This document shows positions 5,418-60,856 of a DNA stretch of 64,000 bases, in pieces. This DNA is from Sneathiella glossodoripedis JCM 23214 (lineage in GTDB: Bacteria; Pseudomonadota; Alphaproteobacteria; Sneathiellales; Sneathiellaceae). Under the pieces are notes generated by a model. That model was not told the DNA's origin, did not search any database, and saw nothing but the letters and a program-made list of their open reading frames with translations. A program made the position numbers and the translations under genes. Position 1 is the stretch's first letter. Each line of letters starts with the position of its first letter. The DNA lies in assembly GCF_000616095.1 (NCBI RefSeq), contig NZ_BAMS01000002.1:486452-550451 (forward strand), given 5' to 3'.

Positions 5418-6760
5418 TTAACGTTTTCCCTCAATAAATTTTTCCAGCCAGTGAATATTATAATCTCCGGCGAGAAAATCTTCATTTTCAAGCAGGGCTT
5501 GGTGTAGCGGCAATGTTGTCTTGATGCCACCAACAACAAACTCTTCCAACGCCCGTTTTAGGCGGGCCATACATTCTTCGCGGTTCGACCCGTGCACGAT
5601 AAGCTTTGCGATCAGGCTGTCGTAATAGGGCGGAACATTATATCCAGCATAAAGTGCTGAATCCACGCGAACTCCCAAACCGCCGGGCGCATGAAAATCC
5701 AGAACAGGGCCGGGACTTGCGGCAAATGTATCAGGATCTTCCGCCGTAATACGGCATTCAATGGAATGACCAGAGAATTTTATATCCTCCTGTGTCAGGT
5801 CAAGCTTATGACCTGCAGCAACTTTGATCTGTTCGCGAACCAGATCAATTCCGGTGACCATTTCCGTCACAGGGTGTTCCACCTGCAAGCGGGTATTCAT
5901 TTCAATGAAATAAAACTGATCATTTTCAAACAGGAATTCAATGGTGCCGACACCCTCATATCCCATTTCACGAATTGCATCTGCGACCGTTTTACCAATT
6001 TCTTCGCGCAATTCATCCTTCAACGCGGGCGAAGGTGTTTCTTCGAGCGCTTTTTGGTGACGGCGTTGCAGCGAGCAATCACGTTCACCAAGATGAACAA
6101 CATTTCCTTGCCCATCCGCCAATACCTGGATTTCAATATGACGGGGAGTCCCCAGATATTTTTCGATATAAACAGCGTTATCGCCGAAGGCCATCTGGCT
6201 TTCCGCGCGAGCCGAGGAATAAGCTTCCGAAATATCTTTTTCGGTTTCAGCCACTTTCATTCCGCGGCCACCGCCACCTGCTGACGCTTTAATAATCACA
6301 GGATAGCCGATTTCCGCCGCAATTTTCTTGGCCTCATCAAGCTGGTAACCTCACCGTCTGATCCGGGAACGCAAGGCACACCAAATTTTCGCATGGTCTC
6401 CTTGGCGGCAATTTTATCACCCATCAAGCGAATATGATCCGCGGATGGCCCAATAAATTTGATGCCATGTGCCGTAACGATGTCGACAAATTTGGCATTC
6501 TCGGACAGAAAACCATAGCCGGGATGAATGGCGTTGGCATTCGTGACTTCGGCTGCAGAAATAATGGCCGGCATGTTGAGGTAACTGGCTGTAGAACTTG
6601 GTGGCCCGATACAGACACTTTCATCTGCAAGGCGGACATGCATCGCATCCGCATCCGCTTCGGAATGTACGGCCACAGTGCGAATACCCATCTCGCGGCA
6701 GGCCCTGTGAATTCGGAGCGCAATTTCACCGCGGTTCGCAATGAGGATTTTATCAAACAT
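5418..6760 (-). CDS. accC: Acetyl-CoA carboxylase, biotin carboxylase subunit (one frameshift)
   Basis: ATP-dependent carboxylation of the biotin on AccB, the first half-reaction of fatty acid synthesis. The start chosen is ATG 6760 ([20 protein letters not shown]), the canonical AccC N-terminus. A GTG at 6778 overlaps the accB stop and is the alternative. Features include [11 protein letters not shown], the ATP-grasp glycine loop [15 protein letters not shown] and the catalytic [20 protein letters not shown]. The frame breaks near 6341 between GEVTS and the region AAEIGYP; restoring one base (AGC CTT GAT GAG) gives [20 protein letters not shown]. Corrected length is 447 residues, exactly normal. 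Probably a sequencing deletion. Confidence 0.95.
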
Positions 6761-6774
6761 ATTGTCTACTTCGC

Positions 6775-10245: not shown

Positions 10246-11603
10246 CTAATTATTCTTCTCAGAGATTTTCCGATTAGCCAGGCTGATTATGTCTTCAGCA
10301 CGCAATGAGCCTGGTGAACCTGCTTTCATGAGTTCCTGCGCCCTTTGCGCGTGAAACTTTGCTTTTGCAAGATTGCCGAGGAGCAAGAAACGTTCGGCCG
10401 TGGCAAGGGCGGTATTGGCCGTATCCCCCAATCGATTATAGGCGATAGCGAGTTGGTACCAGCTCGATGAATTGTTGGGATCATAGGCTACACTGGTTCT
10501 TAAGACCTCAATTGCTTTTTTCAGATCCTCTACGCGATTTGTACTTACGAGTGCAGTCCCATATAGCGTTAATATCAGGGGTTCGTATGGGAGAATCTGA
10601 GTAGCGGTTTCCAGTGAGGGAAGGGCTCCGATTACATCCCCGTTCTCGTATAACATTTGCCCTTTGAGTTCATGAAAGTAGGGGTTAGCAGGATTTTGCT
10701 GCAGCAGGCTGTTGATTTCTTTTAATCCATTTTCAATGTCTGGATAGCGAAAATAGGCAATCGCGCGCGCATATCTTGCATACTCGCTGGTATCGCTGAC
10801 AGGAAACTTTTTCAAGACATCGTCAAAATCATCTGTAAATCCTGCCAGTTTCGCTTGGATTAGTTTCAGAGCACGGATCTCTTCCGGCGAATCTGGAATA
10901 TCGCGATATGGGGATTGTTCCACCTGTTTTTGCAACGCCGCAATTCTTTCATGATTGATAGGATGCTTCGCCAATACGGGTCTACTTTGCCATAGGATAT
11001 CTGTTCCTGCTGCTCGAGTATCCTTAGAAATTCCAGCATGCCTCTACCGGAAGTACCAGTGCGCTCCAAATACCGAAGGGAGGCCTGATCAGCAGCTGAT
11101 TCCTGTTCCCGACTGTATTTAAGAAAGGATTTGGCAGCTATGGCGTTCGCTCCTCCAACAATAGCAACCCCGCCTTTGCCTCCACCTGCAATGACCGCTG
11201 CGGCTCCTAGCAAATAACCGATAATCGATTTTGTAGTGGCATTTGCCAGTGCCTCTTGCGTGCGAGCAAGATGACTACCGGCAATATGACCTGTTTCGTG
11301 AGCGATAACCCCCTTGAGCTGGGCAGGACTTTCAACCCGTTCCAGAAGGCCAGTGAAAAAAAACATCCGTTGACCACCTGCAACAAATGCATTGATAATC
11401 TTGTTGTTTATCAGATGGATTGAAACATCATCCGCATTAAGTCCCGCCGCATTAAAGAGGGGACTTGCGTAGGAGCGCAGTGTATGTTCAATTTCAGCAT
11501 CCCGGATATATGACAACTTGGGTTGCGCCGCAAATACAGATTGCGTGGAAAAGGCCAAAAGCAGAATGACTGAAACAAAATTGAGTAAGCGTTTTTTCAA
11601 CAC
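10246..11603 (-). CDS. M48 family metalloprotease with TPR repeats (BepA/YfgC-like), one frameshift
   Basis: Periplasmic zinc metalloprotease and chaperone of the BepA type, which acts in outer-membrane protein assembly quality control. The signal peptide ends near QSVFAA (residue 26). The zinc motif is H102-E-T-G-H106, with the third ligand in SREQESAADQ. The C-terminal half has TPR-like helices (PYEPLILTLYGTALVSTNR, SSWYQLAIAYNRLGDTA). The frame breaks near 10973 in GKVDPYW; adding one A/T to a two-base run restores the path into LAKHPINHERIAALQ. Corrected length is about 452 residues, normal for the family. Its start lies only 13 bases from the earliest possible start of the divergent gene. 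Confidence 0.92.
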
Positions 11604-11616
11604 GAATATCCCTTCA

Positions 11617-13109
11617 TTGAGAAATAAAGTTAAGAATTGTCTCGCAAACAGTCAATGCAGAGCATTACCTTCTTTTTTCATTGGCTCATTATTTGCTTTA
11701 ACGCTGGCCTCCTGTGACACCTCGGAAAATATCCAATTGGGTGTTATCGGAACTGTAGAGGGAAAATTGGGCGGAGTTGCGGCAGATGAGCACGTGCGAC
11801 TTTAATCGCTCAGGATATTTTATCTGCTGGTGGTTCAGCCGCCGATGCGGCGACGGCGCTGTATTTTACACTTTCTGTTACCTATCCGATTTCCGCGTCA
11901 CTGGGAGGAGGGGGTGAGTGTCTCGTTTACAGTGTCGAGAAAAACAGAATTGAAAATCTTAAATTCCCAATTGGTATCGCCAAAAACGGTGGAGAGATTG
12001 GTGTCCCCGGTAATATTCGCGGATTTGCGGCGCTGCACGCCAGATACGGAAAACTAAGCTGGTCGGGGCTATTGGGTCCGGCAGAAAAATATGCAAACTT
12101 TGGGGAAAGTATGTCACGCGCCATGCATATGGCGATGGTTAAATCAGGACCAAACGTCGTCCTGGATGACCGTTTGACAGAATTGTATAAAAATCCGGAC
12201 GGAACCTATAAGAAAGAGGGAAGTCGGATACAGCAGATCAAACTGTCGTCCATCTTGTCAAATATACGAACCAACGGCGGTGCCTTTTTCTATGGCGGGA
12301 ATCTGGCGAAGGCCTATATCGAAGAAGCGAACCGTGTTGGCGGTAAACTTACAGCCACGGACCTGATCAATTACAAGCCGGTGTGGCAGGAAGCGAAAAC
12401 ATTCGATGTTGATGTGGTGACCGTCGGTGTCTCCAACAGCACTCACGGAGAAATTTATCAGCAAATCTGGCAAAATCTTTTTGAAGGTAAAGGATTTCTG
12501 CATTTGGATTCTGACATAGCCTTGTCAAAGGTGGCTAACGCTTCTGCAAAAAGCTTCCAGCCATATGCCGCATATAATCCTTTCGGAAGTGGCGGAAATA
12601 CTTCATTCGTCACTTCTGATCGTCAGGGAAATGCTGTTTCCTGCGTTGTGGGGCTTGGAAAGCCGTTTGGCTCTGGGAAAATGGGGGCAATTTCTGGCAT
12701 TGTTTTGCCAGAACCTCTGACTGACACAGAAGCAGAATTTCCAACGTCACCGGTGCTGGTCATCAACCGACCCAACAAGCTAATGTTTTATGCCTCAGCA
12801 GCAACGGGTGGGGCTGCCGGAACCTTAAGCTCCGTATACACGGCGCTTAAGGTATTTGCAGAGGGAAAACCACTGGATGACGCAATGACTTCTGCAAGGG
12901 TGTTTACAATGGGGCCAGGTTTGCCTGTTGTTTATGAAAATTCAACAAATCCCGATCAGTTACTGGAAATTACAAGATCTCATCCAGTGGCGATTGAGGT
13001 TCAGAAAATCGGTGCCGTCAATGCCATTCATTGTGCGGAAGGAAAGGTTGAGTTTTGCCAATCCAGCGCCGATACCCGCGGGTATGGACTTTCTTTGATA
13101 GAAAAATAA
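11617..13109 (+). CDS. Gamma-glutamyltransferase-like lipoprotein, one frameshift
   Basis: N-terminal-nucleophile hydrolase of the gamma-glutamyltranspeptidase family. From TTG 11617 the N-terminus has a basic n-region and lipobox LASC (Cys33). ATG 11655 would fit only if the T-run at 11672-11677 were one base shorter. GGT landmarks are DILSAGGSAADAATALYFTL, LGGGGECLVY, GVPGNIRGFAAL, the presumed autoprocessing Thr in GSGGNTSFVTSDRQGNAVSC (about residue 329) and KPFGSGKMGAISGIVL. The frame breaks near 11794 (AADEHV, then LIAQDILSAGG), consistent with one lost base. Corrected length is about 497 residues, a little shorter than E. coli GGT. Substrate not determined. Confidence 0.85.
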
Positions 13110-17058: not shown

Positions 17059-17625
17059 ATATAAGCTCCGTGACTGGGATTCCTCCTGTGAGATAGAGAA
17101 ATGCAGTCTTATGTTTTTTGGAAATCGCTAGCGCCGTCCCGTTTACCTATGGAGGAAAATCCTCAACTACACTGGGTTTTATCGGCTGCCGACCCCGCAT
17201 TACCTCAATACTATAGAGACGCGGAACGATTTCAGTTTCACTAAATCTTTCTCTGCATTGTCTTAAGCACTGCCTTCCAACGCTCAGGGGATCTCAAAAT
17301 AGATGCCAGCTAAAGCTGTCGAAAGCGGCGCCGCCCGATCATATGCCAAAACGCATAAGTTGGGACTGACCACAGAAACTCACAGGCTGATGATAGTTAC
17401 TTGTCAGCAACATCACAAACGAATAATTACTTATGGTGAAAAAAACTTTTGACCGTGGCCAGTGATTTGGCAAAAGCCTTGTTATTGACACGGTGTGAAA
17501 GCATACTATTAGCCGATGTTAAGCATATTAGGTGTTGTAAAAAAACGGAAATTTCCGGTGGATCCCTGCGATCCCGACCCAGTTTGCGATCTGTTGATTG
17601 ACTTAAACGCGAGAGTGCCACCTCA
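17059..17625. other. Gene-free divergent region: long rne leader and amidase promoter side
   Basis: No convincing gene. The rne side includes the hairpin GAGGA-AAA-TCCTC (17152-17164). The amidase side contains a TTGACA element (17485-17490), a 12-base perfect palindrome CGGAAATTTCCG (17546-17557) and an inverted GGATC/GATCC pair (17560-17574). RNase E genes often have long 5' untranslated regions used for autoregulation; that is a family-based expectation, not shown here. Confidence 0.5.
17485..17512 (+). promoter_or_regulatory. Possible sigma70-type promoter for the amidase-PBP1A genes
   Basis: TTGACA (17485-17490), 16 bases, then TATTAG (17507-17512). The -35 is perfect and the -10 matches 4 of 6. 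It lies about 110 bases upstream of the amidase ATG. Confidence 0.4.
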
Positions 17626-18811
17626 ATGTTGCGCAGTTTGTTGAAAATTTGTATTTGGGTGACAATCTGTTGCTTGATCTCAACACCCGGTTACGCTGCA
17701 CAAACCACAATCACAGATGTCAGATTGGGTCTTCACAAAGACAAGACCAGATTTGTTATCGAAATAGATCAAAAACCCGAATATAAAATTTTCTTCCTGC
17801 CAAATCCCGACCGGCTCGTCATTGATATGCAAGAGGTTAACTGGCTGGATGAGGCGACGTCGAAAAAGGGTGTAGGTCTGATCGAAAGCTACAGATATGG
17901 TTTATTTCGTCAGGGTACCAGCCGAATAGTTCTCGATTTGAAAACCCCGGTGAAAATCCTGAGAGAAACCATTCTTCCGCCAACAGACAAAAAACCTTAT
18001 CGTTTTTTTATCGATATCGCGAAAACGGATCAGGCGCAATTTGCCAAATCCGTTGAAGAAAGTCGCAAACGTCAGGTTGCCGCCATAAAGCCGCGTCAGG
18101 AAAATGTTCCCATTCCAAGGAGCCAGCTAAAGCACACTATTATTGTTGATGCAGGTCATGGTGGCATCGACCCGGGCGCTATTGGAAAAAGTGGAATTTA
18201 TGAGAAAAAACTGACTCTTGCAGTGGCAAAGAAGCTAAAAACGGAACTTGAAAAGGATAACCGTTACAGAGTTATTCTCACCCGTGACCGCGATACGTTT
18301 TTAAGCCTGAGGGAAAGGGTGGACATAGCCCGGGAATATAAAGGCGATCTGTTCATATCAGTACATGCAGACTCCATTGGCAGGTCAGATATTCGCGGAT
18401 CCACCGTTTACACCTGTCTGAAAATGCATCAGATGCGGAAGCGGCAGCATTGGCAGCAAATCATGACAAGGCGGATGTGATTGCTGGCGTTGACCTGCAG
18501 GAACAGGACGATACTGTGCAGGGAATACTCATTGACCTTGCACAGCGGGAGACAATGAATTTTTCCGTCAAATTTGCCAAGTTGCTGCTTCCTGAATTTC
18601 GAAGCAGTGGCATCAAAACCGGAAGTCGCTCACATCGCTTCGCAGGTTTTCGTGTGCTAAAAGCGCCAGATGTGCCCTCAGTTCTTGTTGAACTTGGCTA
18701 TCTTTCCAACAGACAGGATGAAGAATTTCTCAAATCTCAATCAGCCAACTGAAAATGGCGAAAGCAATTTCACGGGCAGTTGAGAAATATTTTAACGAAA
18801 TTGAGCCATGA
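17626..18811 (+). CDS. N-acetylmuramoyl-L-alanine amidase (AmiC/AmiB type) with AMIN domain, two frameshifts
   Basis: Periplasmic amidase that cleaves peptide side chains from peptidoglycan during cell separation. The signal peptide ends near STPGYA (residue 24). The AMIN domain spans about 27-135, followed by an Amidase_3 domain from about 168 with the zinc motif IIVDAGHGGIDPGA and FISVHADS. The frame breaks near 18414 (STVYT, then SENASDAEAAALAANH) and again near 18751. Restoring one G there extends the ending to WKMAKAISRAVEKYFNEIEP, with stop TGA 18809-18811. Corrected length is 395 residues. It lies upstream of PBP1A, the usual alphaproteobacterial pairing. Confidence 0.93.
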
Positions 18812-23512: not shown

Positions 23513-24540
23513 TTATTTCCCAAATTTTTGGGACAAGGATTTCGCGACCAACTCCAGCGACTTATCTGCATCAGGCAGCAAACCACTTAAAGAGCTAAAA
23601 CCGTGAACCATGCCTTCAAAGCGCACCATGCCCACCGGAACATTGGCAGCCTTCAACTTTTGTGCATATTCTTCCGCTTCATCACGAAGGGGGTCAAATC
23701 CCGCCGTAATTATGAGGCAGGGGCCAGATCAGAAAAATCTTCTTCGCTTAATGGGGATGCTCTTGGGTTGTCCCTATCTAGTGGCGAATTCAGATAATGC
23801 TCCCGGTACCAGTGCATTCTCTCTTCAGTCAGGAAAAATCCACTGGAAAAAAGTTTATGACTATTCGCCGTGAAATGAGAATCTGTAGTGGGGTAAATAA
23901 GGACCTGCATAACCGGTTGTGGAGTTCCATTTTTCTTGGCGTCGTGACAGGCAACCGCCGCCAAATTGCCACCGGAACTGTCTCCACCAATAGCTATTTT
24001 CTGGGCATCCAAACCCTTTTGTGCCCCAAATTCCTGCACCCAGCGAAGAGCGGAATAGGCGTCATCAACTGCTGCCGGGAATTTATGCTCAGGTGCAAGG
24101 CGATAATCGACTGAAATGACTGCGAAATTCCACATCTTGGCAAGGCGACGGAATAAACCATCATGTGAATTGACAGATCCGCGGATAAAGCCGCCCCCGT
24201 GGAAACCAAGTAATACCGGTAATTTTTCGCCGGTATCCGTAGGTTTATAGAGTCTGGCGGGAATTGGTCCGTTTTCACTTGGGATGATGAAATCTTCAAC
24301 ATAAGGAAGAGGGACATAATCTCCACCTAGGGTGCCTGCCAGTTTTTCGATTTGCTCACGGGCGTTTTCTACCGTCTCCGTTTCGATGGAAACGGATTGT
24401 TTATCCACAACAGCGCAAAGGAATTGGGCTTTCGCATTTAACAGTTGGCCATCTTTTTTAATTCTGCGACCCACATAGAGCAGATTAAAAATTCCGGTTG
24501 GTATTTTACACAGAATTTTGGCAAGCTTTTCCTGATCCAT
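23513..24540 (-). CDS. Alpha/beta hydrolase (hormone-sensitive lipase-like), one frameshift
   Basis: Carboxylesterase of the HSL/GDXG family. ATG 24540 is preceded by GGAGGGGG. The oxyanion motif is LLGFHGGGFIRG and the nucleophile elbow is GGDSSGGNLAAV. The catalytic Asp and His are in TAGFDPLRDEAE and FEGMVHGFSSL. The last two appear only after restoring one base near 23716 (DLAPA, then LIITAGFDPL); in the given sequence the frame stops at DLAPAS. Corrected length is 342 residues. The N-terminal ~80 residues are the usual cap. Natural substrate unknown. Confidence 0.88.
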
Positions 24541-24605
24541 GCCCCCTCCGTATCCAAGTGAATTGTGGAAAAGTTTCCGCGCAGAAAATGATGGGAGTTA
24601 CTTTC

Positions 24606-42427: not shown

Positions 42428-43192
42428 ATGACAAACAAACCAAATCCGGATAATACAAATAACGAAGAGCAGTCAGGTATAAAGACACTTGTAGAACCAG
42501 CACCCAAAGTCGGGCTTCTGGCGCGTTTAAGAACGTATTTTTTAACAGGTATCGTGATTACGGCGCCCATCGGAATCACAATTTATCTGACCTATATTTT
42601 CGTAGATTTTGTCGACGCCAACGTAACGCCGTTAATCCCTGCAAGATATAATCCGGAAACTTATTTGCCCTTTAGTGTTCCGGGGTTAGGCTTGTTTGTT
42701 GCGGTTTTGGTTCTGATTCTGATCGGCTTTCTCACGGCCAACTTTTTAGGTCGCTCCTTCCTGCATTTTGGGGAGCGCATCGTCAATCGGATGCCGGTTG
42801 TTCGCACAGTCTATACTGCTCTGAAACAGATTATGGAAACGGTACTTGCCCAATCCAGCACATCTTTTAGGGAAGTCGTTCTGGTCGAATACCCACGCAG
42901 AGGAATTTGGGCCATTGCCTTTGTGACCAGCGAAGCAAAAGGTGAAGTTGCCAAACAGGATGACGATACGATTATCAGTGTTTTCCTGCCTACAACTCCC
43001 AACCCCACATCTGGATTTCTTCTGTTCGTGCCCAAGAAGGATCTGAAGTTCCTTGATATGTCAGTGGAAGAGGGGGTCAAGCTTGTGATCTCTGCGGGGA
43101 TGATCTGGCCATCAGAAGAGGGTGATAAAGAAAAACAGGCAAACGAACCTTCGGTTTCCAAAAATTCAAAGGAAAAGGAAACTCTATCCTGA
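42428..43192 (+). CDS. DUF502 family membrane protein
   Basis: 254 residues. Two transmembrane segments (YFLTGIVITAPIGITIYLTYIFV and LGLFVAVLVLILIGFLTANFLG) and then the DUF502 core (MPVVRTVYTALKQIMETVL, FREVVLVEYPRRGIWAIAFVT, FLPTTPNPTSGFLLFVPK). The tail is charged. Function unknown. It converges on recG, overlapping its last 9 bases. Confidence 0.9.
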   Translation: MTNKPNPDNTNNEEQSGIKTLVEPAPKVGLLARLRTYFLTGIVITAPIGITIYLTYIFVDFVDANVTPLIPARYNPETYLPFSVPGLGLFVAVLVLILIGFLTANFLGRSFLHFGERIVNRMPVVRTVYTALKQIMETVLAQSSTSFREVVLVEYPRRGIWAIAFVTSEAKGEVAKQDDDTIISVFLPTTPNPTSGFLLFVPKKDLKFLDMSVEEGVKLVISAGMIWPSEEGDKEKQANEPSVSKNSKEKETLS

Positions 43193-45277
43193 TTGCAGAT
43201 ATTTAATCGCGTTATCGCGTTCAAATAAATAGAGCAGGGTGCGAATAGCCTGGCCGCGGGGTGAATTCAATTTCGGATCAGATCCCAAAAATGCGCGAGC
43301 GTCGTCCCTTGCAATCTGCACCAGTCTTCCATGAACGCTCAAATCAGCAACTTTAAACTCTGGAAGCCCGCTTTGGCGAGTTCCCAAAAGCTCTCCTGAC
43401 CCTCGCAAGCGTAAGTCTTCTTCGGCAATTTTGAAGCCATCCTCAGTTTCACGCATAATTTTCAATCTGGATTTTTGTGTCTCCCCAAGCGGGCCTGCAT
43501 ATAATAGCAGACAACTTCCTGCCAGACCGCCACGCCCTACACGCCCTCGAAGCTGATGTAATTGGGCCAAGCCAAATCGCTCAGCATGTTCAATTATCAT
43601 CACAGTTGCTTCAGGGACATCAACGCCCACCTCAATGACGGTCGTGGCAACCAGAATTTGGAAATGACCATCCTTGAATGCCTGCATGGCAGAATCTTTT
43701 TCTTCTGCTTTCATTTTGCCATGAACCAGCCCGACTTTTCCGGGGTATAGCGCTTCAAGGTAGCGATAGCGATCCTCAGCTGCGGCCAAATCACTGACTT
43801 CACTTTCCTCAACCAGTGGGCACACCCAGTAAATGCGTTCATTCACCTGTAATTTTCGTCCGAGGCTATTTGCCAGATCATCCAACCGCGCCAGATCAAT
43901 TGCTCGCGTCTCCACTGGTTGCCGCCCGGGTGGTTTTTCGGCGATTACAGATACATCCATATCTCCATATGCCGTAAGGGCCAGTGTGCGTGGGATTGGT
44001 GTCGCTGTCATGACCAGTACATCAACACCATTATTTTCAGGTCTCCCTTTTGAACTGAGTGCCAAGCGCTGATGCACACCAAAACGATGCTGCTCGTCGA
44101 TAATCGCAAGCCCAAGATCATGATAAATCACATCATCCTGAAACAAGGCGTGTGTCCCCACAAGAATATCAATTTCACCTGCAGCCAACCTGCTCAGCAA
44201 TTCCGCTCGAGCCTTGCCTTTAAGTCGCCCAGTTAGCAGTTCGATCCTCAAACCAAGTTTTTCAACGATGGGGCCTAACGACTGTAAATGTTGTCTTACC
44301 AGAATTTCAGTCGGTGCCATCAAGGCTCCCTGCGCTCCACTTCCCACGCATTGGACAAGCGCCAGTAATGCGACAACAGTTTTTCCGCTCCCAACATCCC
44401 CCTGAAGCAAACGCAGCATCCGGTAAGGAGACTTCATATCACCAGAAATCTCTGTCATCGCCTCTCGCTGTGCTGCTGTCAGTGTAAAGGAAAGGACGTC
44501 TTCAGCCTTTCTGTTCAGTCCAGTATCCCCGGCAAGTACACGCCCCTTTTTTCGCTTCATACTCTCGCGAACAAGCTCAAGCGCGATCTGATTGGACAAT
44601 ATTTCATCATAAGCCAATCTTTGACGGATGGGACTTGTGGGCTCTATATCCTCTGCGCCTTGCGGTGAATGCACTGCTTTCATCGCCTGTTCCCACGACA
44701 TCCATTTCTCTCTGCTCAGCAGGTGAGGATCTATCCATTCAGGTAAATCTATCACTGTATCAAGGGCTGATTTCTGCACCTTATTAAGTACATTGTTGGT
44801 AACACCTGCCGTCAATGGATAAACCGGCTCGTATCTTTCCACTTGATCCGGTGCATCAGGGTCCACCATGTGTTCTGGGTGCGTGATCTGAAAATCCTGT
44901 GAATAGCTTTCAAGTTTGCCATAGATTTTCCGGCGTTGCTCTGGCGGTAACTGTCGCTTTAAATAGTCCTCCCTGCCATTAAAGAAGGTGAGTGTCAGTT
45001 TTTGACCATTCACATCAAGCTGAACCCGATACGGAACTTTTCGGCTTCTGGAGGGAAAATGTTTAATCACCGTAGCTGTAACAATGACATGCTTCCCCAG
45101 ATACTGCTCGGACAAATCCTCAATTGGATGACGTTCGATATATCCTGAAGGCAAGTGGTACAATAAATCCACGATATTAGGACCGGCCAACTTACTGAGC
45201 AGGCCAAATATGCGCGGTCCAACACCTTTGATTGTGTTGCTGGGCTTGAACAGAGGAAATAAAATTTCTGGCCGCAT
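43184..45277 (-). CDS. recG: ATP-dependent DNA helicase RecG
   Basis: 697 residues. Rescues stalled forks and processes Holliday junctions. The N-terminal wedge/OB domain has KGVGPRIFGLLSKL and SRKVPYRVQLDVNGQKLTLTFF. The helicase core has LLQGDVGSGKTVVALLAL, the DEXH box AIIDEQHRFGVHQR and motif VI GRVGRGGLAGSCLLLY. Its TRG-like C-terminus is intact. Divergent from sdhE. Confidence 0.97.
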   Translation of the reverse strand: MRPEILFPLFKPSNTIKGVGPRIFGLLSKLAGPNIVDLLYHLPSGYIERHPIEDLSEQYLGKHVIVTATVIKHFPSRSRKVPYRVQLDVNGQKLTLTFFNGREDYLKRQLPPEQRRKIYGKLESYSQDFQITHPEHMVDPDAPDQVERYEPVYPLTAGVTNNVLNKVQKSALDTVIDLPEWIDPHLLSREKWMSWEQAMKAVHSPQGAEDIEPTSPIRQRLAYDEILSNQIALELVRESMKRKKGRVLAGDTGLNRKAEDVLSFTLTAAQREAMTEISGDMKSPYRMLRLLQGDVGSGKTVVALLALVQCVGSGAQGALMAPTEILVRQHLQSLGPIVEKLGLRIELLTGRLKGKARAELLSRLAAGEIDILVGTHALFQDDVIYHDLGLAIIDEQHRFGVHQRLALSSKGRPENNGVDVLVMTATPIPRTLALTAYGDMDVSVIAEKPPGRQPVETRAIDLARLDDLANSLGRKLQVNERIYWVCPLVEESEVSDLAAAEDRYRYLEALYPGKVGLVHGKMKAEEKDSAMQAFKDGHFQILVATTVIEVGVDVPEATVMIIEHAERFGLAQLHQLRGRVGRGGLAGSCLLLYAGPLGETQKSRLKIMRETEDGFKIAEEDLRLRGSGELLGTRQSGLPEFKVADLSVHGRLVQIARDDARAFLGSDPKLNSPRGQAIRTLLYLFERDNAIKYLQSG

Positions 45278-45725: not shown

Positions 45726-48700
45726 TCCCCATCTTGAACATTTGTGCTCATCGCTTCTCTCAAAGGAGCGATCCAATGACTCTTTCCAGTTGGAATCCGT
45801 TCCTGAAGGGTATGACGCCTTTATACTGGGGCAGGTAGCGAAAAGCTCCAGCAAGATCTTCTCTATATCCTGCGTGAAGATGTCAGAATGGCAGCCACTG
45901 AAGAGGCACTGAACTTCTTTCATCCAGATATCGAAGTCATTTCAATTCCCGCGTGGGATTGCCTGCCTTATGACAGGGTTTCTCCAAACCCGGAAATAGT
46001 GGCGCAGCGAATGACCGCTTTGGTCAAATTGCTGAATAAAACAGATCAAAAACGGGTTGTACTGACGACCGTAAATGCGATTTTGCAGCGCGTACCTCCA
46101 CGGGATATGGTGCAATCAGCCCGTGTTGTTGCCCGTAAAGGCGAAAAAATTGACCTTAAACAACTGACTGATTTTCTGGTTGCCAACGGTTTTTCGCGGA
46201 TCGGAACCGTAATGGAGCCGGGCGAATTTGCCATACGCGGTGGTATTATCGACATATTCCCACCAAGCTCAAAAGACCCGGTCCGTCTAGATCTTTTTGG
46301 CGAACAGATAGATGGCATCCGCACATTTGATCCCGTATCACAACGATCAAAAGATCGTGTTGATCAAATTGAGATAATTGCAGCCAGTGAGTTTCTGCTC
46401 GATGATGATAGCGTCAGCAGATTCCGAAGCGGTTATCGCAGTCATTTTGGTGCGATTACACGCGATGACCCGTTATATGAAGCGGTTAGCGAAAAGCGCA
46501 AACATGCTGGCATGGAACACTGGCTGCCCTTATTTCATCAAAATATGGAAACCATCGCTGACTTTCTGCCCGATTCCATGATCTTCATGGATCATCTGTT
46601 TGACGAAAGTCTGCAATCTCGCCTCGAAACCATCGACGATTACTTTGACGCCCGCAAAGTCGCTTCAGACAATAAAAGTTCTGATTATCTTCCGATTCCG
46701 GCTGATCTTCTCTACCTGACCAAAGAAGAATATGAGCACCTGATCGCAACACGCTGTACGGTCCATATTTCCCCGTTTGTGAGCGGTTCCGAAAATCCGA
46801 ACATCCTCAATGCACAAGGAAGGCAGGGCAGGGATTTCGCACCGGAGAGAAATCGCCCCAACGAAAATATTTACGACCATCTGAAAAGTCACATTGAAGA
46901 AAAACAAAAGAACAACCAGCAGGTAATCGTCAGTCATTTTTCAAAAGGGTCGTGCGAGCGAAACGCCAAAGTCTTAAACGATCATGGTGTCTCTGATCAG
47001 ATCGTCATTGAAAATTTTCAGCATATTTCCCAAAACTCCACTCCGAAAACAGTCAAGATGACTGTATTTGGTGTTGAAAAAGGATTTGAAGCGCCCGGCT
47101 TCGTAATTATCGGTGAGCAGGACATACTGGGGGACAGGCTTGTACGTCCCCGCAAATCTTCGCGTAAGAATGATAATTTTATAGCTGAAGCCTCTCAGTT
47201 AAATGCTGGCGATTATGTGGTTCATGTTGAACATGGCATTGCGCAGTATGAAGGGCTGAAAACAATTGATATTTCTGGCGCACCTCATGATTGCGTGACC
47301 CTTCTTTATGATGGGGGCGACAAGATATATCTGCCTGTGGAAAATATCGAAATGCTCTCGCGTTATGGCGGGGCGGATAGCGCTGCAACTCTTGATCGCC
47401 TCGGCGGGTCGGGTTGGCAGGCACGCAAAGCCAAGCTCAAGAAAAAAGTTCTGGAGATGGCCGATCAACTCATAGGTATCGCGGCTGCCCGGCAATTACG
47501 CTCTGGTTTTCGTCTTGTCCCGCCTGAGGGAGCCTATGCCGAATTTTGCGCAGGTTTCCCTTTTGAGGAAACTGACGACCAGCTCAAGGCAATCGACGAT
47601 GTGTTGGGGGACCTAAGTTCCGGTAAGCCCATGGATCGGCTTGTTTGTGGTGACGTGGGCTTTGGTAAAACAGAAGTTGCCCTGCGGGCCGCCTTTGTGA
47701 CCGCCATGTCTGGAAAACAGGTTGCCATTGTAACGCCTACGACTTTGTTGGCTCGTCAGCATTACAAAACCTTCGCAGAACGCTTTAAAGGTCTGCCAGT
47801 AAACGTGGTGCAGTTATCCCGTATGGTAAGCACAAAAGAAGCCAACCAATCCAAGGCGGGGCTTGCAAGCGGGCAGGTTGATATTGTGGTGGGAACCCAT
47901 GCATTGCTTGGAAAATCCATCAATTTTAAAGATCTGGGTCTGGTCATCGTCGATGAGGAGCAGCATTTTGGTGTTGCCCATAAAGAAAGGCTCAAAGAAC
48001 TCCGTGCGGAGCTTCATGTACTGACCCTGACTGCAACGCCAATTCCCAGAACGTTGCAACTCGCCATGACCGGCATTCGCGATTTGTCAATTATTGCAAC
48101 TCCTCCGGTTGATCGGCTTGCGATCAGAACCTTTGTTCTGCCTTTTGATCCTGTTGTGGTTCGTGAGGCCATTTTGCGCGAGCATTACCGCGGTGGGCAG
48201 AGCTTCTTTGTCTGTCCAAGGCTAGCTGATCTGGCAGAAGTCGGTAAATATCTCAAAGAACAAATTCCGGAAGTCAAATTTGTAACGGCACATGGTCAAA
48301 TGCCGGCCAAAGAGCTTGATGACGTCATGAACGCATTTTATGACGGGAAATATGATGTTCTAGTCGCTACCAATATTGTCGAGTCCGGACTTGATATCCC
48401 TCGGGCCAATACGCTGATTACCTATCGTGCAGATATGTTCGGTCTGGCTCAGCTTTATCAGATCAGAGGGCGTATTGGGCGCTCCAAGACCCGTGCCTAC
48501 GCCTATCTCACATTACCACCGCGTAAAAAGCCTACGGAAGCCGCTGAAAAACGTCTGCGGGTATTGCAATCTCTGGATACCCTTGGCGCCGGTTTCACAC
48601 TTGCCAGTCATGATCTGGATATCCGCGGGGCGGGGAACCTGCTGGGTGACGAACAGTCTGGACATGTGAAAGAAGTCGGCTTCGAACTGTATCAGGAAAT

Positions 48701-49219
48701 GCTCGAAGAAGCGGTTGCCAACGCAAGAAACGCTGGCGATGATACGGCTCAAGAGGCAGAAGATAAATGGTCACCAACGATCAATATTGGAACATCGGTC
48801 CTTATTCCGGACACCTATGTTAGTGATCTTTCTTTGCGAATGGAGCTTTACCGACGCATTGCCATTCAGGAAACAGAGGAAGAACTTGAAGCCTTTGAAG
48901 TCGACTGGTGGATCGATTTGGCCCGATGCCGGATGAAGTGAAACATCTTCTTGAAGTCATGAGCATCAAACAATACTGCAGGCAAGCCAATATCGAGAAA
49001 ATCGATGCCGGCGCCAAGGGGGCCGTATTAACTTTCAGAAATAACAGCTTTGACAACCCCGGCGGTCTGGTTGCCTACATTTCCAAGCAACCGGGTTCAG
49101 CCAAGCTCCGCGCTGATCACAAGATGGTTTACACCCGCTCTTGGGAGCATCCTGAAGATCGCCTGTCAGGCGTGCATACACTGGCGCGTGATCTGGCAGC
49201 GATCGCAGCCACTCCCTAA
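45718..49219 (+). CDS. mfd: Transcription-repair coupling factor Mfd, two frameshifts
   Basis: Removes stalled RNA polymerase and recruits UvrA. Order: UvrB-like N-terminal region (IPAWDCLPYDRVSPNP), RNAP-interaction domain (AGDYVVHVEHGIAQYEGL), translocase with GDVGFGKTEVALRAAF, DEEQHFG, ATNIVESGLDIPRAN and QIRGRIGRSKTRAYAY, and the C-terminal TRCF domain. The frame breaks near 45855 (SSSK, then DLLYILREDV) and near 48904 (EAFEV, then LVDRFGPMPDEV). Each is repaired by one base. Corrected length is about 1167 residues, normal. It begins inside the sdhE stop. Confidence 0.96.
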
Positions 49220-49260: not shown

Positions 49261-49911
49261 TTATTGCTCTTGCCCTTCGGATTTGGCTTCCTGTTCGATC
49301 CGTTCAATGACCTGCAAAATGACACTGCTGTCCTGCGCGCCGGAAAGAGCATATTTTTCATCAATAATGAAAAAGGGAACACCGGAAATACCCATTTCCC
49401 GGGCCCGCGCATCTTCCGCTGCGACCACGTCCAGATCCCTGTCAGTCGCCAGAAGGTCGCGAACGATTTCCGCATTCATTCCAGCATCCGCCGCCGCCTG
49501 AACCAGAACCTCGCTATCGCCCAGATCCTTTCCATCCATGAAAAAGGCCTGGAATAGATTTTCAACAACCTGATCCTGACAGCCTGCGCTCGCCGCCCAT
49601 TTTATGACCCGGTGAGAATTCAGGGTATTGGGAGAGCGGGCAATTTTCGAAAACTGAAAATCAAGCCCCACAGCCTGACCCGCTTTGGCCATATGTTCAT
49701 AAAGCTCTTTCGCTCGCTCAGCACTGCCAAATTTTTTAGCAGTGAATTCCTTGCGGTCAGCCCCCTCTAATGGCATGTCAGGGTGCAGCTGAAAAGGATG
49801 CCAGGCAATATCAACATCAAGATCAGGACGTTCGGCAAGAGCTGCTTCGAGTTTCCGTTTGCCAATGAGGCACCACGGGCAAACGGTATCAGAGATAATG
49901 TCTATTTTCAT
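49261..49911 (-). CDS. DsbA family oxidoreductase (FrnE-like)
   Basis: 216 residues with no signal peptide, so cytoplasmic. Active site C11-P-W-C14 in DTVCPWCLIGKRKLEAAL, followed by the helical insertion (SPNTLNSHRVIKWAA) and GISGVPFFIIDEKYALSGAQ with the cis-proline. FrnE-type proteins are cytoplasmic DsbA-fold thiol oxidoreductases. The annotated relatives include polyketide-synthesis FrnE. Physiological substrate unknown. Confidence 0.9.
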   Translation of the reverse strand: MKIDIISDTVCPWCLIGKRKLEAALAERPDLDVDIAWHPFQLHPDMPLEGADRKEFTAKKFGSAERAKELYEHMAKAGQAVGLDFQFSKIARSPNTLNSHRVIKWAASAGCQDQVVENLFQAFFMDGKDLGDSEVLVQAAADAGMNAEIVRDLLATDRDLDVVAAEDARAREMGISGVPFFIIDEKYALSGAQDSSVILQVIERIEQEAKSEGQEQ

Positions 49912-49973: not shown

Positions 49974-51262
49974 TTATTCTGAATACCCTTCTGCCTGTGC
50001 CCGCTTGAGCACGATCGCCAGATCTTCGTCATCAAGCATTTCCGTCAGGCCTATCTTGATGGTTGCCTCAACCGGTCGCGCAATTGCAGCGATTGTGTAT
50101 TCCGTATTGCGGGTTACGCCATATACGCGGCTAAGGGCAATAAAGGCATCACGCCTTGCAGTCCCGGGCAGGGCGATCAGAAAGCTGTTACTGTTGAAAC
50201 GGCCGCAAAAATCTTCACCACGCATCAGAAGTGACAGAATATTCCCGACCTGACGCAAGACCTGATCTCCGGCTGGATATCCATATTCCTCGTTAATTTC
50301 AGTCAAGTTCGCAATCTCTACCGAAGCGACCGTCAAATGTTTGGACCTTGATGAATGATCCGCAATCATATGCTTCATATGAGCATGGACAAATCCGTGC
50401 GAATAAAGACCGGTCAGACCATCCGTGACGGGAAGCGGGCGCGAAGTTTTCAATAATTTCTGCAATGAGAAGCGTAATTGAGACTGATCGATAAGCAGTT
50501 TGGATCGGGCGAATAACGAAGACATCTCACCGGGATGAATAACGATGTCAGATGCGCCGTGAATATAGGCAGCCTCGCGGTTATTCTCATTTTCCAGAAC
50601 GAAAATAACCGGCAGGTTATAAAGTCGGCTATCTCCCCGAATATCAAGGCATAACCGAAAATTCACATCACCCTGTCCCGCACCAAGAATTATGACCGCA
50701 TCATAATTGCCCGCCCGCAACTCATCAGCAACCAGATCTGCGTTTGGACACAGGCGTACCTTCGCAACCCGGCTCAATTGAAGCATGACATCACCAACGA
50801 TGGCATTCTGATTGCCCACAAGAAGGATGGCGTTTTGTGCCTCTTCAGGTGAGGGTTCACTAAAATCCTTTTCCATAAACCCGTATAGGATGTGGTATTC
50901 TGACGGCGATCGTACTCCTGCTTCATGGTCTGCAGACGGATCATAGAGAGGGCCCTTGTCCTCAGTTCCAGATCGCAAAAATTATCAGGTACCGACTGAA
51001 TATCCGACGCTTTTGGATTGTCCCCAACGATCAATAGGGGAATTTCTGCATTTGCGATCCCCTCAAGCAAGTCTGCCTTTCCCTGTAAATTGTTGGAGCC
51101 AGACTGGATCAGCACCAGATCAAAATCGGCGATATCATCTTTGAGGGAGTCAAAGTCCAAAATCGCGCTTTTGGTCAATGCGACATTCTCATCTTCAAAG
51201 CAATTTTGAATTTTATCTGTGGGCTCGTCAGAGAGAACAAGGATATTTGCTGTTACGGCCAT
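49974..51262 (-). CDS. PopA/PleD-like protein: two receiver-like domains plus degenerate GGDEF with intact I-site, one frameshift
   Basis: About 429 residues, REC-REC-GGDEF as in PleD and PopA. In the first REC the phosphoacceptor position is Gln53 (DLVLIQSG) in place of the usual Asp, and the second reads DAVIILGAGQGD, again without it. The GGDEF signature is NSNSF, which cannot bind GTP and metal for synthesis. The allosteric I-site RxxD (RGED) is kept five residues upstream, exactly as in active cyclases. It is therefore a likely c-di-GMP receptor, not a cyclase. The frame breaks near 50900 between QEYDRRQ and EYHILYGFMEKDF, a probable lost base. Start ATG 51262 (MAVTANILVLSDEPTDKI). Confidence 0.83.
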
Positions 51263-51431
51263 GGAAGTGATCTCTTTTTTTGCAGTACCTGTCCACTCAT
51301 TTGAACAGCAATTTATTAAAAATCTCTTCTTTTTTGGAGAACCCGCGACAAAAGAATATTGAACACTTGCATTTCTCGTCAGCTAGCGGAACTATGGCGC
51401 ACAATAACAACACCAATATGGGAGAAAACAA

Positions 51432-52199
51432 TTGACGACCCCCACATTTCTTGATGGTAAACACGCTCTTGTAACAGGCGCTTCATCTGGCCTTGGCTGG
51501 CAGTTTGCCTTAACTCTGGCAAGGGCAGGGGCCAAAGTCTCCATTGCCGCGCGCAGTACAGATAAACTTGAAAAGCTTGCCGCTGAAATCGAATCCTTCG
51601 ATGGCCGCGCTGTGCCGGTTAAAATGGATGTCACAGATTTGAGCAGCATTCGCGATGGTGTCGCCGCCGCTGAAACCGAACTGGGGCCTGTGAATATTCT
51701 GGTCAATAATTCCGGCGTCAGTGCTCTCAGCCGCTCAGAATCTATTAGCGAGGAAGACTTTGATCTTGTTATGGACACCAATGCCAAGGGTGCGTTTTTT
51801 GTGGCCCAAAGCGTTGCTCAAAGCATGATCCGTCACGGAAATGGCGGCAAAATCATAAATATTGCCTCCGTTGCTGCGAACCGGGTCCTGAAACAGAATA
51901 TTGCCTACTGCATGTCGAAAGCAGCGGTGCAGCATATGACAGCTGCGTTGGCGGATGAGTGGGGCAAATATAAAATTCAGGTCAATGGTATTAATCCCGG
52001 TTACATTGTCACCGGTATCAACCGTGACTATTGGGACAGTGAGCCAGGTAAAAAGCTGATCGAAAAACTCCCCGGTAGACGGGTCGGTGAGCCAGCGCAT
52101 CTTGATGGCGTCCTGTTATTGCTGGCAGGGCCCGGTTCTGATTTCATGACCGGCAGTATGATTGAAGTTGATGACGGCTTGACAGCCCACGGCTTCTAA
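51432..52199 (+). CDS. Short-chain dehydrogenase/reductase
   Basis: 255 residues. The start is TTG 51432 with GGGAG a few bases upstream (TTPTFLDGKHALVTGASSGLGWQFAL); no ATG is suitable. Motifs: TGASSGLG, NNSG, KIINIASVAANRVL and YCMSKAAVQHM (Tyr-x3-Lys). The GYIVTGINRDYW segment is typical of SDRs acting on 3-oxoacyl or related substrates. Exact substrate unknown. It starts the oxidoreductase group. Confidence 0.9.
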   Translation: MTTPTFLDGKHALVTGASSGLGWQFALTLARAGAKVSIAARSTDKLEKLAAEIESFDGRAVPVKMDVTDLSSIRDGVAAAETELGPVNILVNNSGVSALSRSESISEEDFDLVMDTNAKGAFFVAQSVAQSMIRHGNGGKIINIASVAANRVLKQNIAYCMSKAAVQHMTAALADEWGKYKIQVNGINPGYIVTGINRDYWDSEPGKKLIEKLPGRRVGEPAHLDGVLLLLAGPGSDFMTGSMIEVDDGLTAHGF

Positions 52200-56176: not shown

Positions 56177-58220
56177 TTATGCGGATTTAACGTCGCTTAA
56201 GAATGTACGTATTTCCTGTTCAAAATTCTGCGTCACTGAATTCATCATTTCGGCAGTATCTTTCAACATGGAAGACGTTGAGGTTCCACTTTCCGCACCA
56301 ACGCGAATTTCCTGTACGCTTTGTGACACTTCATTTGCACCACCTGCGGCCTGTTGCACGTTCATGGAAATTTCACCAGTCGCTGCACTTTGCTCTTCAA
56401 TGGCGGACGAAATACCAGTGGTAATATTACTGATTTCATTAATAACCTTGCCAATGGCGGTCATTGATTCAACCACTTCCGAAGTAACACTTTGCATGTC
56501 GGATATCTGGACGCTGATTTCCTCGGTTGCTTTTGCCGTCTGATTAGCAAGTGACTTCACTTCCGATGCCACAACCGCAAATCCTTTACCCGCTTCGCCG
56601 GCTCGCGCTGCTTCAATGGTCGCGTTCAGGGCCAGCAGGTTGGTCTGATTTGCGATATCCTGAATAAGATCCACAACGGTTTCAATTTTCTGACCGGCTT
56701 GCGTAAGGTCTTCTGCATATTTGGTCGCTTTGCCAGCATCGTTCACAGCGGTCGTTGTCACTTGCGCCGATTTGTTGATCTGGCTGCTGATTTCACGAAT
56801 GGAACTGCTCAGCTCTTCCGTCGCGGAGGCAACTGAATTCACATTGGCTGACATGGTGTCTGAGCGTGTGCTTACACTATTGGCCAGCATTCCGGTGCTT
56901 TCCGCCTGATTGGACATATCACCAGCAGCCCGGTTCAGCTCATTGGTTGCGCTCTGCAAAGTTGCCATATTCTCATTAACCTTGGCGTCAAATTCCGCAA
57001 TGAGTTTGGAGAGAAGTTCGGCTTTTCTGGCTTGTTCTGCCATTTGTGCTTCGCGCGCTTCCGTTTCTTTACGCTCACGCTCAATTTCAGCCTGTTGCTG
57101 ACGTTCTTTTTCAAGCCGAGCCTGCTCACGAGCTTTCTCAGCCTCTGTAGCCAGTCGTTTATTTTCAAGTGAATTCTGTTTGAAAATATTCATCGCCTTG
57201 GCGATATTGCCAATTTCATCACTCCTGCTTGCTGCGGGGATATGCGTCTCTAGATCACCCTCCGCCAAATCTGTCATGGCATTGGTAATCTTTCCAATAA
57301 TCCCGGCAAGGCTGCGCGACAACAAGACAGAAATCGTAATAATGAGAATTGCACCGATCAAGATCGCACCAAGTATTGTCGTGGCAATTGTATCGGTAAC
57401 AGCTCGTGATTCCTGTTGCGTGGCCATGGTCGATGCATCATAAAACGCACTCACCTTCGCATTTGTTTCAATCACACTGTTCATCGCTGTATCAGCGGCT
57501 TCAATTGCACCCGCAACTTGCAACCACGATGCAGAAAACTGTTTGAAATAATTCTGATAGGCCGCCATTTTCTCTGTAATCAATTTTTTATTGGCGGGTG
57601 AAATATCACTTTTGGCGAGTTGCGCCGTAAATTCAGCATCCCGTTTGGCCATGCGATCAATATATTTGGGGTGAGAGCGCAGCATGAAATCTTTTTCGTG
57701 GCGACGCATCATCAGCATTGTCACGGTCAGTTCATCATTTTTCTCTTTTTTGAGCGTTTCTTCAACTTCATGAACGGCACCGCGCAGCGCACCTTGCAAA
57801 CCGACCTTTTCATTCACGCCAAGCTCAACAATACGTTGCTGCAGCAGGTCAAAAGACGTTTTGTAGGCTCCTGCAGATGCTTGCAACTCATCAAGCAATG
57901 CCAACGCTTCCGCGTCAGTGGTCTGTGTGCGTAAAGTTTCAATGTTCGAATTTAAAGCATCGAGCTCAGCAAATTGGGCCGCTTTCGCTTCATCGGATTT
58001 GGTGGCGATAAACTCTTTTTCAAAATTCTTTCGCTTTTAAAATACGGGCGTTGATTTCTTTTGTGATGTCGTGATTACCTCGCGCTAGCAGGTAATCTGC
58101 AACAACCGCAGTGTTTTTGGCACTGCCGACAAAGAAAATACCAGCGATAACCGCCAGTCCAACAATGGTAACGATCACTGGGATCGCAAGCTGGATCTTG
58201 AATGGAAATTTAGAGAACAT
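56177..58220 (-). CDS. Methyl-accepting chemotaxis protein, one frameshift
   Basis: 680 residues corrected. ATG 58220 with AGGAG upstream. TM1 ([20 protein letters not shown]), a periplasmic helical sensor of about 250 residues, TM2 ([20 protein letters not shown]), HAMP ([31 protein letters not shown]), a long Glu/Lys/Arg coiled coil, and the signalling tip [20 protein letters not shown]. No CheR-type pentapeptide is at the C-terminus (ends FLSDVKSA). The frame breaks near 58022-58025 at an A4/T4 run (ILKAKEF, then [10 protein letters not shown]), where one base looks extra. Ligand unknown. Confidence 0.93.
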
Positions 58221-58531
58221 CGGAGCTCCTGTTGCACATCAATACAATTGGAGCCAAATTATGAAAAATTTGTTGGAATTTAGTTAATATAAGCAGTTGT
58301 ATAATATTCAGAATTATAATCGTCACTTGTCGAATTCAGAAAATGCATAAATAATAATAAGTTACTCTATTTGTTAAACTTTTATGACATTTTTGTGACA
58401 GCGATTTTTTATCAAAAATCACTTAAATTTAACGCTGAATTCCTGAAATCAACTGTAAATCACGTGCGCCGGAGCTGAAAACTGTTAGCTTTTCGAACAA
58501 ATTTAAGTATTCGGAAATATAAACGGGGGAG
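58221..58531. other. Gene-free AT-rich region upstream of the chemoreceptor
   Basis: No gene found. It holds the chemoreceptor ribosome-binding site and presumably its promoter, and a small hairpin GATTTTT/AAAAATC (58403-58420). Stops are frequent in all frames. It borders the 3' end of tRNA-Ser. Confidence 0.55.
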
Positions 58532-58867: not shown

Positions 58868-59853
58868 ATGTTGAAAATTCTGATTAAAATTTGCAAAAGC
58901 GTGGCTTTAGTTTCCCTGTTCTCAATAACTGCGCTATCCGCGCATGCTGAAAAGAAGGAATTCGGCATCTGGTTGCAGGAATTAAAACAGGAAGCATTGG
59001 GTAAGGGGATCAAACCTTCCATTGTTGATGAAGCTTTTGCGAATGTGAAATTCAAGGAAAAAATCATTTCACTGGATCGCAAGCAACCCGAGCTAACCCA
59101 GACTTTCCAGCAATATATGGCGCAGCGTCTTCCCAAGTCCTTGATTAATCAGGGGCGCAAAATGCTACGGGAAAATCGCGCTATTCTGGAAGAGGTGGGT
59201 GAAAAATATGGTGTTCAGCCCCGGTTTATTGTTGCCCTTTGGGGGGTGGAGACACGTTATGGCAAATATACAGGCGGCTTTAACGTAGTCGAAGCCCTGA
59301 CAACGCTGGCCTATGACAACCGCCGGGCGGATTATTTCCGCGGGGAACTGATGACAGCTCTGCAGATCCTGAACGAAGGGCATATCACCGTTCCCAACAT
59401 GAAAGGCTCCTGGCTGGCGCAATGGGGCAGGCCCAGTTTATGCCCTCCAGTTTCGTCAATTTTTCTGTCGATCATAATGGTGATGGAAAACGTGATATCT
59501 GGAATACGAAAGCAGATGTGTTCGCCTCGGCTGCTAATTATCTGGCCCGCTCAGGTTGGCAAGGAGATCAGACTTGGGGCAGGGAGGTCAAGCTTCCCGC
59601 CGGATTTGACGAGAGCCTGATAGATCTTAAAAACCGCCAGCCAATGCAATATTGGCAGGATTTGGGCGTGAGAAAAGCAGACGGCTCTGATTTGCCATCT
59701 CGACAACTGATGGGATCTTTGGTGCAGCCAAAAGGAGGCAATGGACAGACATTTCTAGTCTATAACAACTATCTGACAATCCTCAAATGGAACCGCTCCA
59801 CATATTTCGCCATGTCGGTTGGTCATCTGGCTGATAAACTGGCCGGTAGCTAG
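58868..59853 (+). CDS. Lytic murein transglycosylase (MltB family), one frameshift
   Basis: Cleaves the glycan strand to anhydromuropeptides. ATG 58868 after GGGTGAGG. Signal peptide to about residue 27 (ALSAHA). Catalytic Glu is in ALWGVETRYGKYTGGFNVVEAL. The frame breaks near 59412 (MKGSW, then AGAMGQAQFMPSSF), where adding one G restores the conserved GQAQFMPSSF block. Corrected length is 328 residues. Ends FAMSVGHLADKLAGS. First of a murein gene run. Confidence 0.93.
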
Positions 59854-59892: not shown

Positions 59893-60856
59893 ATGAAAAA
59901 GCTCCTTCTCCTCACCCTTTTGCAGCAGGTGCTTCCGCACTGTCGGGCTGTGCGGAAATGAACCTGCTGGGACATGCCGCTTCGGAAGTCAATGATCTGA
60001 ATAAACCTTCCGAAAATGTTCAGGCCATTCGGGCAAAACGCAAAGTTGGCAAGCCCTATCAGATTAACGGGATCTGGTATTACCCCAAAGAAGAGCCGAA
60101 TTATAATGAAACGGGCCTCGCTCCTGGTACGGGGAACCCTTTCATGGGCGGAAAACTGCCAATGGTGAAACTTACGACATGAACCAGCTCACCGCCGCTC
60201 ACAAAACGCTGCCCATGCCAACAGATGTTCGTGTAACCAACCTTGAAAATGGTCGCTCACTTGTTGTAACCATCAATGATCGCGGTCCTTTTGTACATGG
60301 ACGGATTATCGATCTGTCCCGCCGGGCCGCGCAGCTTTTGGGAGTAATCCGCAACGGAACCGCAAAAGTCCGCGTAGAAGCGCTGCTCAATGACAAAGGG
60401 GATGTCAAATATCTGGCAAAGGCCGAAACCGCCCCTGAAGAGAGACAGGTTGCCTCTGCTGCTCCCAAAAAAGGGCCGGTCACCTCGTCCGAGCTGGCGC
60501 CTCCCAAAGCAATGGATGTCGCACCTGCACCTGAAACAACGCGCAAAATTGAACCTGTTGATGCGAAGGTTGGCAGTGAACAGGTTGCCGCGACGGATGC
60601 AAAAGTCATTCAAAAGCCGGTGGTGCCCACTGAAATTTACATTCAGGCCGGTGCCTTTGTAGATTTCAATAACGCAAATCGGTTAAGCGCCAGCCTCTCA
60701 CCGCTTGGGGCTGCGAAGGTGTATCAGGTTCTGGTGAACGGTCAGGATTTCTATCGGGTTCGGCTGGGTCCGATCTATAATGTCGAGGAAGCAGACCAGC
60801 TCCTTGCAAGACTAATCAACAATGGGCACACTGAAGCCCGCATAGTGATTGAGTAA
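59893..60856 (+). CDS. rlpA: Septal ring lytic transglycosylase RlpA-like lipoprotein with SPOR domain, two frameshifts
   Basis: Corrected length is 321 residues. ATG 59893 gives a lipoprotein signal MKKLLLLTLF then AAGASALSGC once one T is restored near 59921. A second missing base near 60121 restores ASWYGEPFHGRKTANGETYDM, the double-psi beta-barrel core, followed by TINDRGPFVHGRIIDLSRRAAQLLG. The Asp in NDRGPF is the RlpA catalytic-type residue. A Pro/Ala-rich linker leads to a SPOR domain (EIYIQAGAFVDFNNANRL), which binds septal denuded glycan. Confidence 0.92.

Follow-up and report, generated by a model that had tools for sequence, protein, structure and literature searches.

The window analysed here, a stretch of 64,000 nucleotides from Sneathiella glossodoripedis JCM 23214, carries at positions 49974-51262 a gene whose product has the domain layout of PleD and an altered GGDEF box. 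The question raised by this locus is whether such a protein makes c-di-GMP or receives it, as the Caulobacter cell-cycle protein PopA does. In the passages available from PMC12564702, PMC3764195, PMC8973945 and PMC11519897, PopA is described as an enzymatically inactive paralog of PleD; its I-site binds c-di-GMP, and it takes part, alongside RcdA and CpdR, in the delivery of CtrA to ClpXP. A preliminary description of the window had proposed a PopA-like receptor from the sequence motifs, and the analysis below examines this reading together with its alternatives.

The gene (popA) spans 1289 bases, in which the ORF listing shows two overlapping ORFs on the minus strand. The features used throughout the text are the following:

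49974-50978, minus strand: C-terminal ORF, with the second (pseudo-)receiver and the degenerate GGDEF domain (PF00990, 3.7e-21); genuine frame from about 50900
50774-51262, minus strand: N-terminal ORF, with the first (pseudo-)receiver; genuine frame up to about 50900; this own-genome fragment corresponds to profile positions 1-140
50876-50901, minus strand: frame-change junction, one base shorter here than the sequences of three relatives
51104-51106, minus strand: codon of Gln53, which replaces the receiver phosphoacceptor Asp
50211-50222, minus strand: I-site RGED (R359-x-x-D362 of PleD), from sequence and alignment
50181-50195, minus strand: NSNSF, at the position of the GG(D/E)EF active-site box
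5421-6769, 10252-11639, 11530-13106, 17611-18800, 23522-24549, 45828-49213, 49998-51295, 56180-58223, 58868-59844 and 59940-60853: genes of the window that change frame in the comparison with the closest genome (G004)

The preliminary description read 49974-51262 as a single frame and overlooked a one-base frameshift near 50,876-50,900; alignment with three relatives shows that the window copy is one base short where the two ORFs meet. The two ORFs of the assembled sequence would fit a true pseudogene, with the frameshift present in the cell and popA either dead or its product split. However, 10 of the 59 window ORFs with a match in G004 align in more than one frame, among them a biotin-carboxylase-like gene and mfd, whose TRCF domain is spread over two ORFs, and the frame is open in all 20 full-length Sneathiella orthologs. 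Since the assembly of the window is rich in indels, single frameshifts in it should not be taken as pseudogenes, and a popA pseudogene was judged quite unlikely; most likely, the break is an assembly error and the gene is whole in the living strain.

Within the genus, popA was found in 22 of the 24 genomes (20 full-length copies, the window's own copy and one cut by a contig end), and the two genomes lacking it have a completeness of 66 and 56%. Named loci with the same protein include those of Sneathiella chungangensis, S. litorea, S. sedimenti and S. chinensis. The gene is under purifying selection, with dN/dS of 0.06-0.13 in five of the seven popA pairs (dS is above 1 in four of these five) and saturation in the other two. 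Because of this low dN/dS and the presence of the gene in nearly the whole genus, the motif pattern described below is more than chance.

At the motif level the positions given in the preliminary description held: Gln53 lies at the phosphoacceptor site of the first receiver, Asp is also absent from the corresponding position of the second, and RGED stands five residues ahead of NSNSF. That description also regarded the loss of receiver phosphorylation as a twist of this protein. The loss of Asp is real; as a distinctive trait it is weak. In the PopA-type rows of family f52, taken here to be Caulobacteraceae, the first-receiver Asp is kept in 10/12, although none of the 12 retains the acid pair or the conserved Lys. 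Furthermore, the second receiver of PleD likewise lacks Asp (Asn in one f52 PleD, Ser in one Sneathiella PleD), so that its loss there is ordinary for the REC-REC-GGDEF architecture.

An intact GG(D/E)EF was sought in 15 Sneathiella rows and found in none of them. The position of the metal-binding Asp327 is occupied by Glu in the window protein and by Asp in one of the 15 Sneathiella rows, and nothing in the window protein aligns at Lys442 or Arg446, in a C-terminal tail where the alignment is loose and where four of the 12 f52 PopA rows have Lys at 442. The I-site residues Arg348, Glu350 and Asp351, on the other hand, are invariant in 20 Sneathiella rows. The C-terminal ends vary: 13 of the 20 Sneathiella PopA proteins (L023-L031, L033-L036) have a variable stretch followed by a terminal Ala-Ala, and this ending is absent from the window copy and its closest relatives. 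Ala-Ala tails resemble those recognised by ClpX, and in the sub-clade that has them PopA could itself be a ClpXP substrate.

Pfam gives GGDEF as the only domain above cut-off, the receivers being too diverged. Among the named NCBIfam models PleD scores highest, at 138.4 bits where the cut-off is 474 (168 and 131 bits for intact orthologs). The nearest solved proteins by sequence are also PleD chains. The ortholog L105 was modeled from 16 sequences with a mean pLDDT of 86.1 and a pTM of 0.86, and the five best structural matches of this model are all PleD; the first has a Z of 25.2, with 408 of 429 residues aligned and an rmsd of 10.8. The match over these 408 residues bears out the REC-REC-GGDEF layout that had been read from the sequence, and the large rmsd probably indicates that the modeled domains are arranged differently from those of PleD.

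Sequence comparison with Caulobacter PopA was made through f52, which is taken to be Caulobacteraceae because it contains the top match for the holdfast protein HfaA, 35 of its 40 genomes have two full-length matches, and seven of 12 PopA-type proteins have their I-site Arg at residue 357 if numbering begins with the start codon closest to the domain. Residue 357 is presumably the number of the I-site Arg in PopA, and we infer that the f52 PopA-type protein is C. crescentus CC1842. A solved PopA structure that could name the f52 protein was sought and not found, the best matches being PleD chains. Because the first f52 PopA rows were chosen by a pattern requiring R-x-E-D, their I-site counts are biased; in an unfiltered check of 20 further f52 loci, for which the remaining full-length match in each genome was taken, R-x-E-D is present in 20/20 and GGEEF in 0/20. 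In the earlier f52 set, no match lacked both R-x-E-D and GGEEF.

In a tree of 69 rows, where PopA is represented by the f52 sequences, the 42 PopA-type rows split from the 24 PleD and three outgroup rows (100/99), and the window protein falls in the PopA clade and outside that of PleD, in agreement with its preliminary placement. The split persists in trees of 65 rows, both when they are built from the receivers only (SH-aLRT 100) and when they use the GGDEF domain stripped of its I- and A-site columns (SH-aLRT 99). L085, whose frame is broken in the record, was excluded from alignments and trees, L086 was included with an uncertain start, and the two GGEEF-bearing proteins L094 and L098 did not serve as PleD rows.

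Conservation within the clade follows the I-site and not the active site. Using PleD numbering, which we anchored on 359 as the presumed residue number of the I-site Arg in an f52 PleD, Arg359, Glu361 and Arg390 are invariant in 41 PopA-clade rows and Asp362 is present in 40; with the window protein included, Arg359 and Arg390 are present in 42/42 and Asp362 in 41/42. The GGDEF box columns 368-371 rank between 221st and 348th of 425 for conservation in the 41 rows, of which only L079 and L090 have the box intact. These two proteins, from other alphaproteobacterial families, show no counterparts of Lys442 and Arg446, and are possible intermediates between cyclase and receptor. Position 361 is Glu in 42/42 clade rows, window included, versus 0/24 PleD rows, where it is Ile (13), Phe (5), Val (4) or Met (2). 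Glu361 inside the I-site is a possible marker of the PopA clade and perhaps alters how c-di-GMP is held. Arg313, the second I-site Arg of PleD, is kept in none of the 42 clade rows, the window protein among them.

Long branches occur among the rows of other families, in both the full and the reduced-column trees, and gene order was therefore taken as an independent check. The neighbors of popA in the window are these, all but mfd named by reading of the sequence and, for the FrnE/DsbA-type gene, without a family scan:

43184-45277, minus strand: recG-type helicase gene, a conserved neighbor
45888-49219, plus strand: mfd, a conserved neighbor, split by a frameshift
49261-49911, minus strand: FrnE/DsbA-type gene (frnE), a conserved neighbor
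51432-52199, plus strand: SDR-family gene, a divergent conserved neighbor

The order of the locus is SDR, popA, frnE, mfd, recG. SDR and FrnE genes adjoin popA in all 17 loci of the query's own group, and mfd is found in 16 of them (L108 ends before mfd). The 18th named locus, L122 from Pseudoroseomonas (22% identity), has none of SDR, FrnE and mfd. Other families contributed 15 loci: 13 have FrnE nearby, eight have mfd and 14 have at least one of these genes, the exception being L141, which lies on a contig of 4.4 kb. In f52, mfd is near five of seven PopA loci and 18 of the 20 further loci, while none of SDR, FrnE, mfd and recG was found near the five f52 PleD loci searched. The preliminary description was correct in placing the gene outside any flagellar or divK context; its setting is a conserved popA locus, and this shared gene order supports the PopA reading independently of the tree. 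The same order recurs across alphaproteobacterial families (L105-L121, L131-L145), in which the c-di-GMP effector gene popA stays beside repair genes.

Beyond Sneathiella, the order contains one other genus; its genome (G024, 99% complete) gave a match at PleD level only, and a popA ortholog was not found in it. A search of the class with a Sneathiella-only profile at 1e-40 gave some match in 54 of 241 genomes; since this profile misses f52 PopA at that threshold, the number of genomes with a PopA-type protein counted in this way is a lower bound. By inspection, trees and gene order, at least 15 genomes outside the genus have one; the trees include 14 of these 15 other-family genomes and omit the one whose frame is broken.

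The partners of PopA were looked for as well. DUF1465, which we take to be the Pfam family of RcdA, was found in 22 of the 24 genus genomes, and Caulobacter is the only one of 14 control genomes that matches. The window genome encodes CtrA (424 bits, cut-off 350) and, according to a receiver-domain scan, a CpdR-like protein whose 145 bits are below the cut-off of 180; a search for CpdR with a short back-translated motif gave 0/24 genomes, which, as it was run without a positive control, carries no information. CtrA of this genome (L193) ends in ...RAKAS and not in Ala-Ala, which may bear on its degradation by ClpXP; Caulobacter CtrA ends in Ala-Ala. At a different location, the genome has an ORF of the PleD type (455 aa), next to a single-receiver gene that, by its sequence, looks like divK. 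In a scan of 40 genomes, DUF1465 was detected in 7/7 f52 genomes, in 10/15 clade genomes outside Sneathiella and f52, in 10/17 comparators without a detected PopA, and in G024, which belongs to the same family and has no popA. RcdA was undetected in the other five of the 15 clade genomes and was detected in ten of the comparators, so PopA and RcdA are not a fixed pair, and RcdA was rejected as a strict companion of PopA.

Taken together, we consider it probable that the Sneathiella popA ortholog encodes a catalytically dead effector of c-di-GMP, with a predicted binding site and a predicted output, the latter probably as an adaptor of ClpXP. Its cyclase function would have been lost through decay of the GGDEF box, replacement of Asp327 by Glu and absence of counterparts of Lys442 and Arg446, and the retained inhibitory site would allow it to act as a c-di-GMP receptor. 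On the model of Caulobacter PopA, it may join RcdA and CpdR once c-di-GMP is bound, and the three may pass substrates, CtrA among them, on to ClpXP. Because what a cyclase requires is lost while the inhibitory site is kept, we infer the receptor role firmly from these motifs, and cyclase activity is presumably absent. The PopA reading is further strengthened by a clade apart from PleD and by the shared locus. It is highly improbable that the protein is of the PleD type and still makes c-di-GMP despite its changed box: fold and architecture are those of PleD, which is also the best named NCBIfam model, but the score is far below the cut-off for that model, the box, Asp327, Lys442 and Arg446 are not kept, the window protein lies outside the PleD clade, and the same genome has its separate PleD-type ORF.

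A stronger, although still rather unlikely, alternative accepts a c-di-GMP receptor of the PopA clade and gives it an output other than delivery of CtrA to ClpXP, the adaptor being a specialisation of Caulobacterales and the older output a different one. Besides the five clade genomes without detected RcdA and the GGDEF box kept in L079 and L090, it is favored by Hyphomonas, for which PMC7200025, in the part available, lists a PopA homologue (25% identity) and describes a stable CtrA that is not controlled by proteolysis, and by a second role of Caulobacter PopA, through SmrF, in the length of the flagellar filament, as given in passages of PMC8973945. Against it, Sneathiella has RcdA, CtrA and the CpdR-like protein. 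The adaptor role of Sneathiella PopA is therefore likely by analogy, and less firm than its receptor role, since RcdA is not a fixed companion and Hyphomonas CtrA is reportedly not controlled by proteolysis.

On a wider scale, the chances seem even that PopA did not originate in Caulobacter and is an old alphaproteobacterial c-di-GMP effector, kept in one locus (SDR, popA, frnE, mfd, recG) and with an R-x-E-D I-site that is absent from PleD. If so, the Caulobacter-type cell cycle would be younger than the control of a ClpXP adaptor by c-di-GMP, or than some older PopA output, and the GGDEF-bearing L079 and L090 would be living intermediates on the way from cyclase to receptor. Since tree and gene order assign PopA to Sneathiella as well as to 15 other-family genomes, the time of origin of c-di-GMP-controlled CtrA proteolysis becomes testable. 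Furthermore, R-x-E-D together with an adjoining mfd or frnE is a simple marker that separates PopA from PleD, its top named NCBIfam match.

Within the literature collection searched, papers joining Sneathiella and c-di-GMP, or combining PopA and c-di-GMP with either mfd or R357, were looked for and not found. PopA and mfd do not occur in the main text of PMC9756655, nor does PopA in PMC2877005, which a review cites for the distribution of PopA. The popA locus and the R-x-E-D signature are not described in the published passages on PopA that were available.

Among known systems, PleD shares with the window protein the domain layout, the fold and the I-site Arg, Asp and Arg390; in contrast to PleD, the window protein lacks GG(D/E)EF, Asp327, Lys442/Arg446 and the phosphoacceptor Asp, has Glu inside the I-site instead of Ile, Phe, Val or Met, and has no adjoining divK-like gene. 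The f52 PopA-type protein belongs to the same clade and has the same neighbors, and differs in the Asp that 10/12 rows carry at first-receiver position 53, where the window protein has Gln. Caulobacter crescentus PopA (CC1842), as presented in the passages available, is like the window protein a PleD paralog with a REC-REC-GGDEF layout, a dead A-site and an RxxD I-site. According to the legend of Fig. 5a in PMC10333796, catalytically dead alphaproteobacterial homologues that bear an I-site branch with PopA, as the window protein does, and the passages of that paper available mention neither Sneathiella nor gene order nor R-x-E-D. PopA-like receptors of Alphaproteobacteria are thus already published, and the Sneathiella protein adds a member to them.
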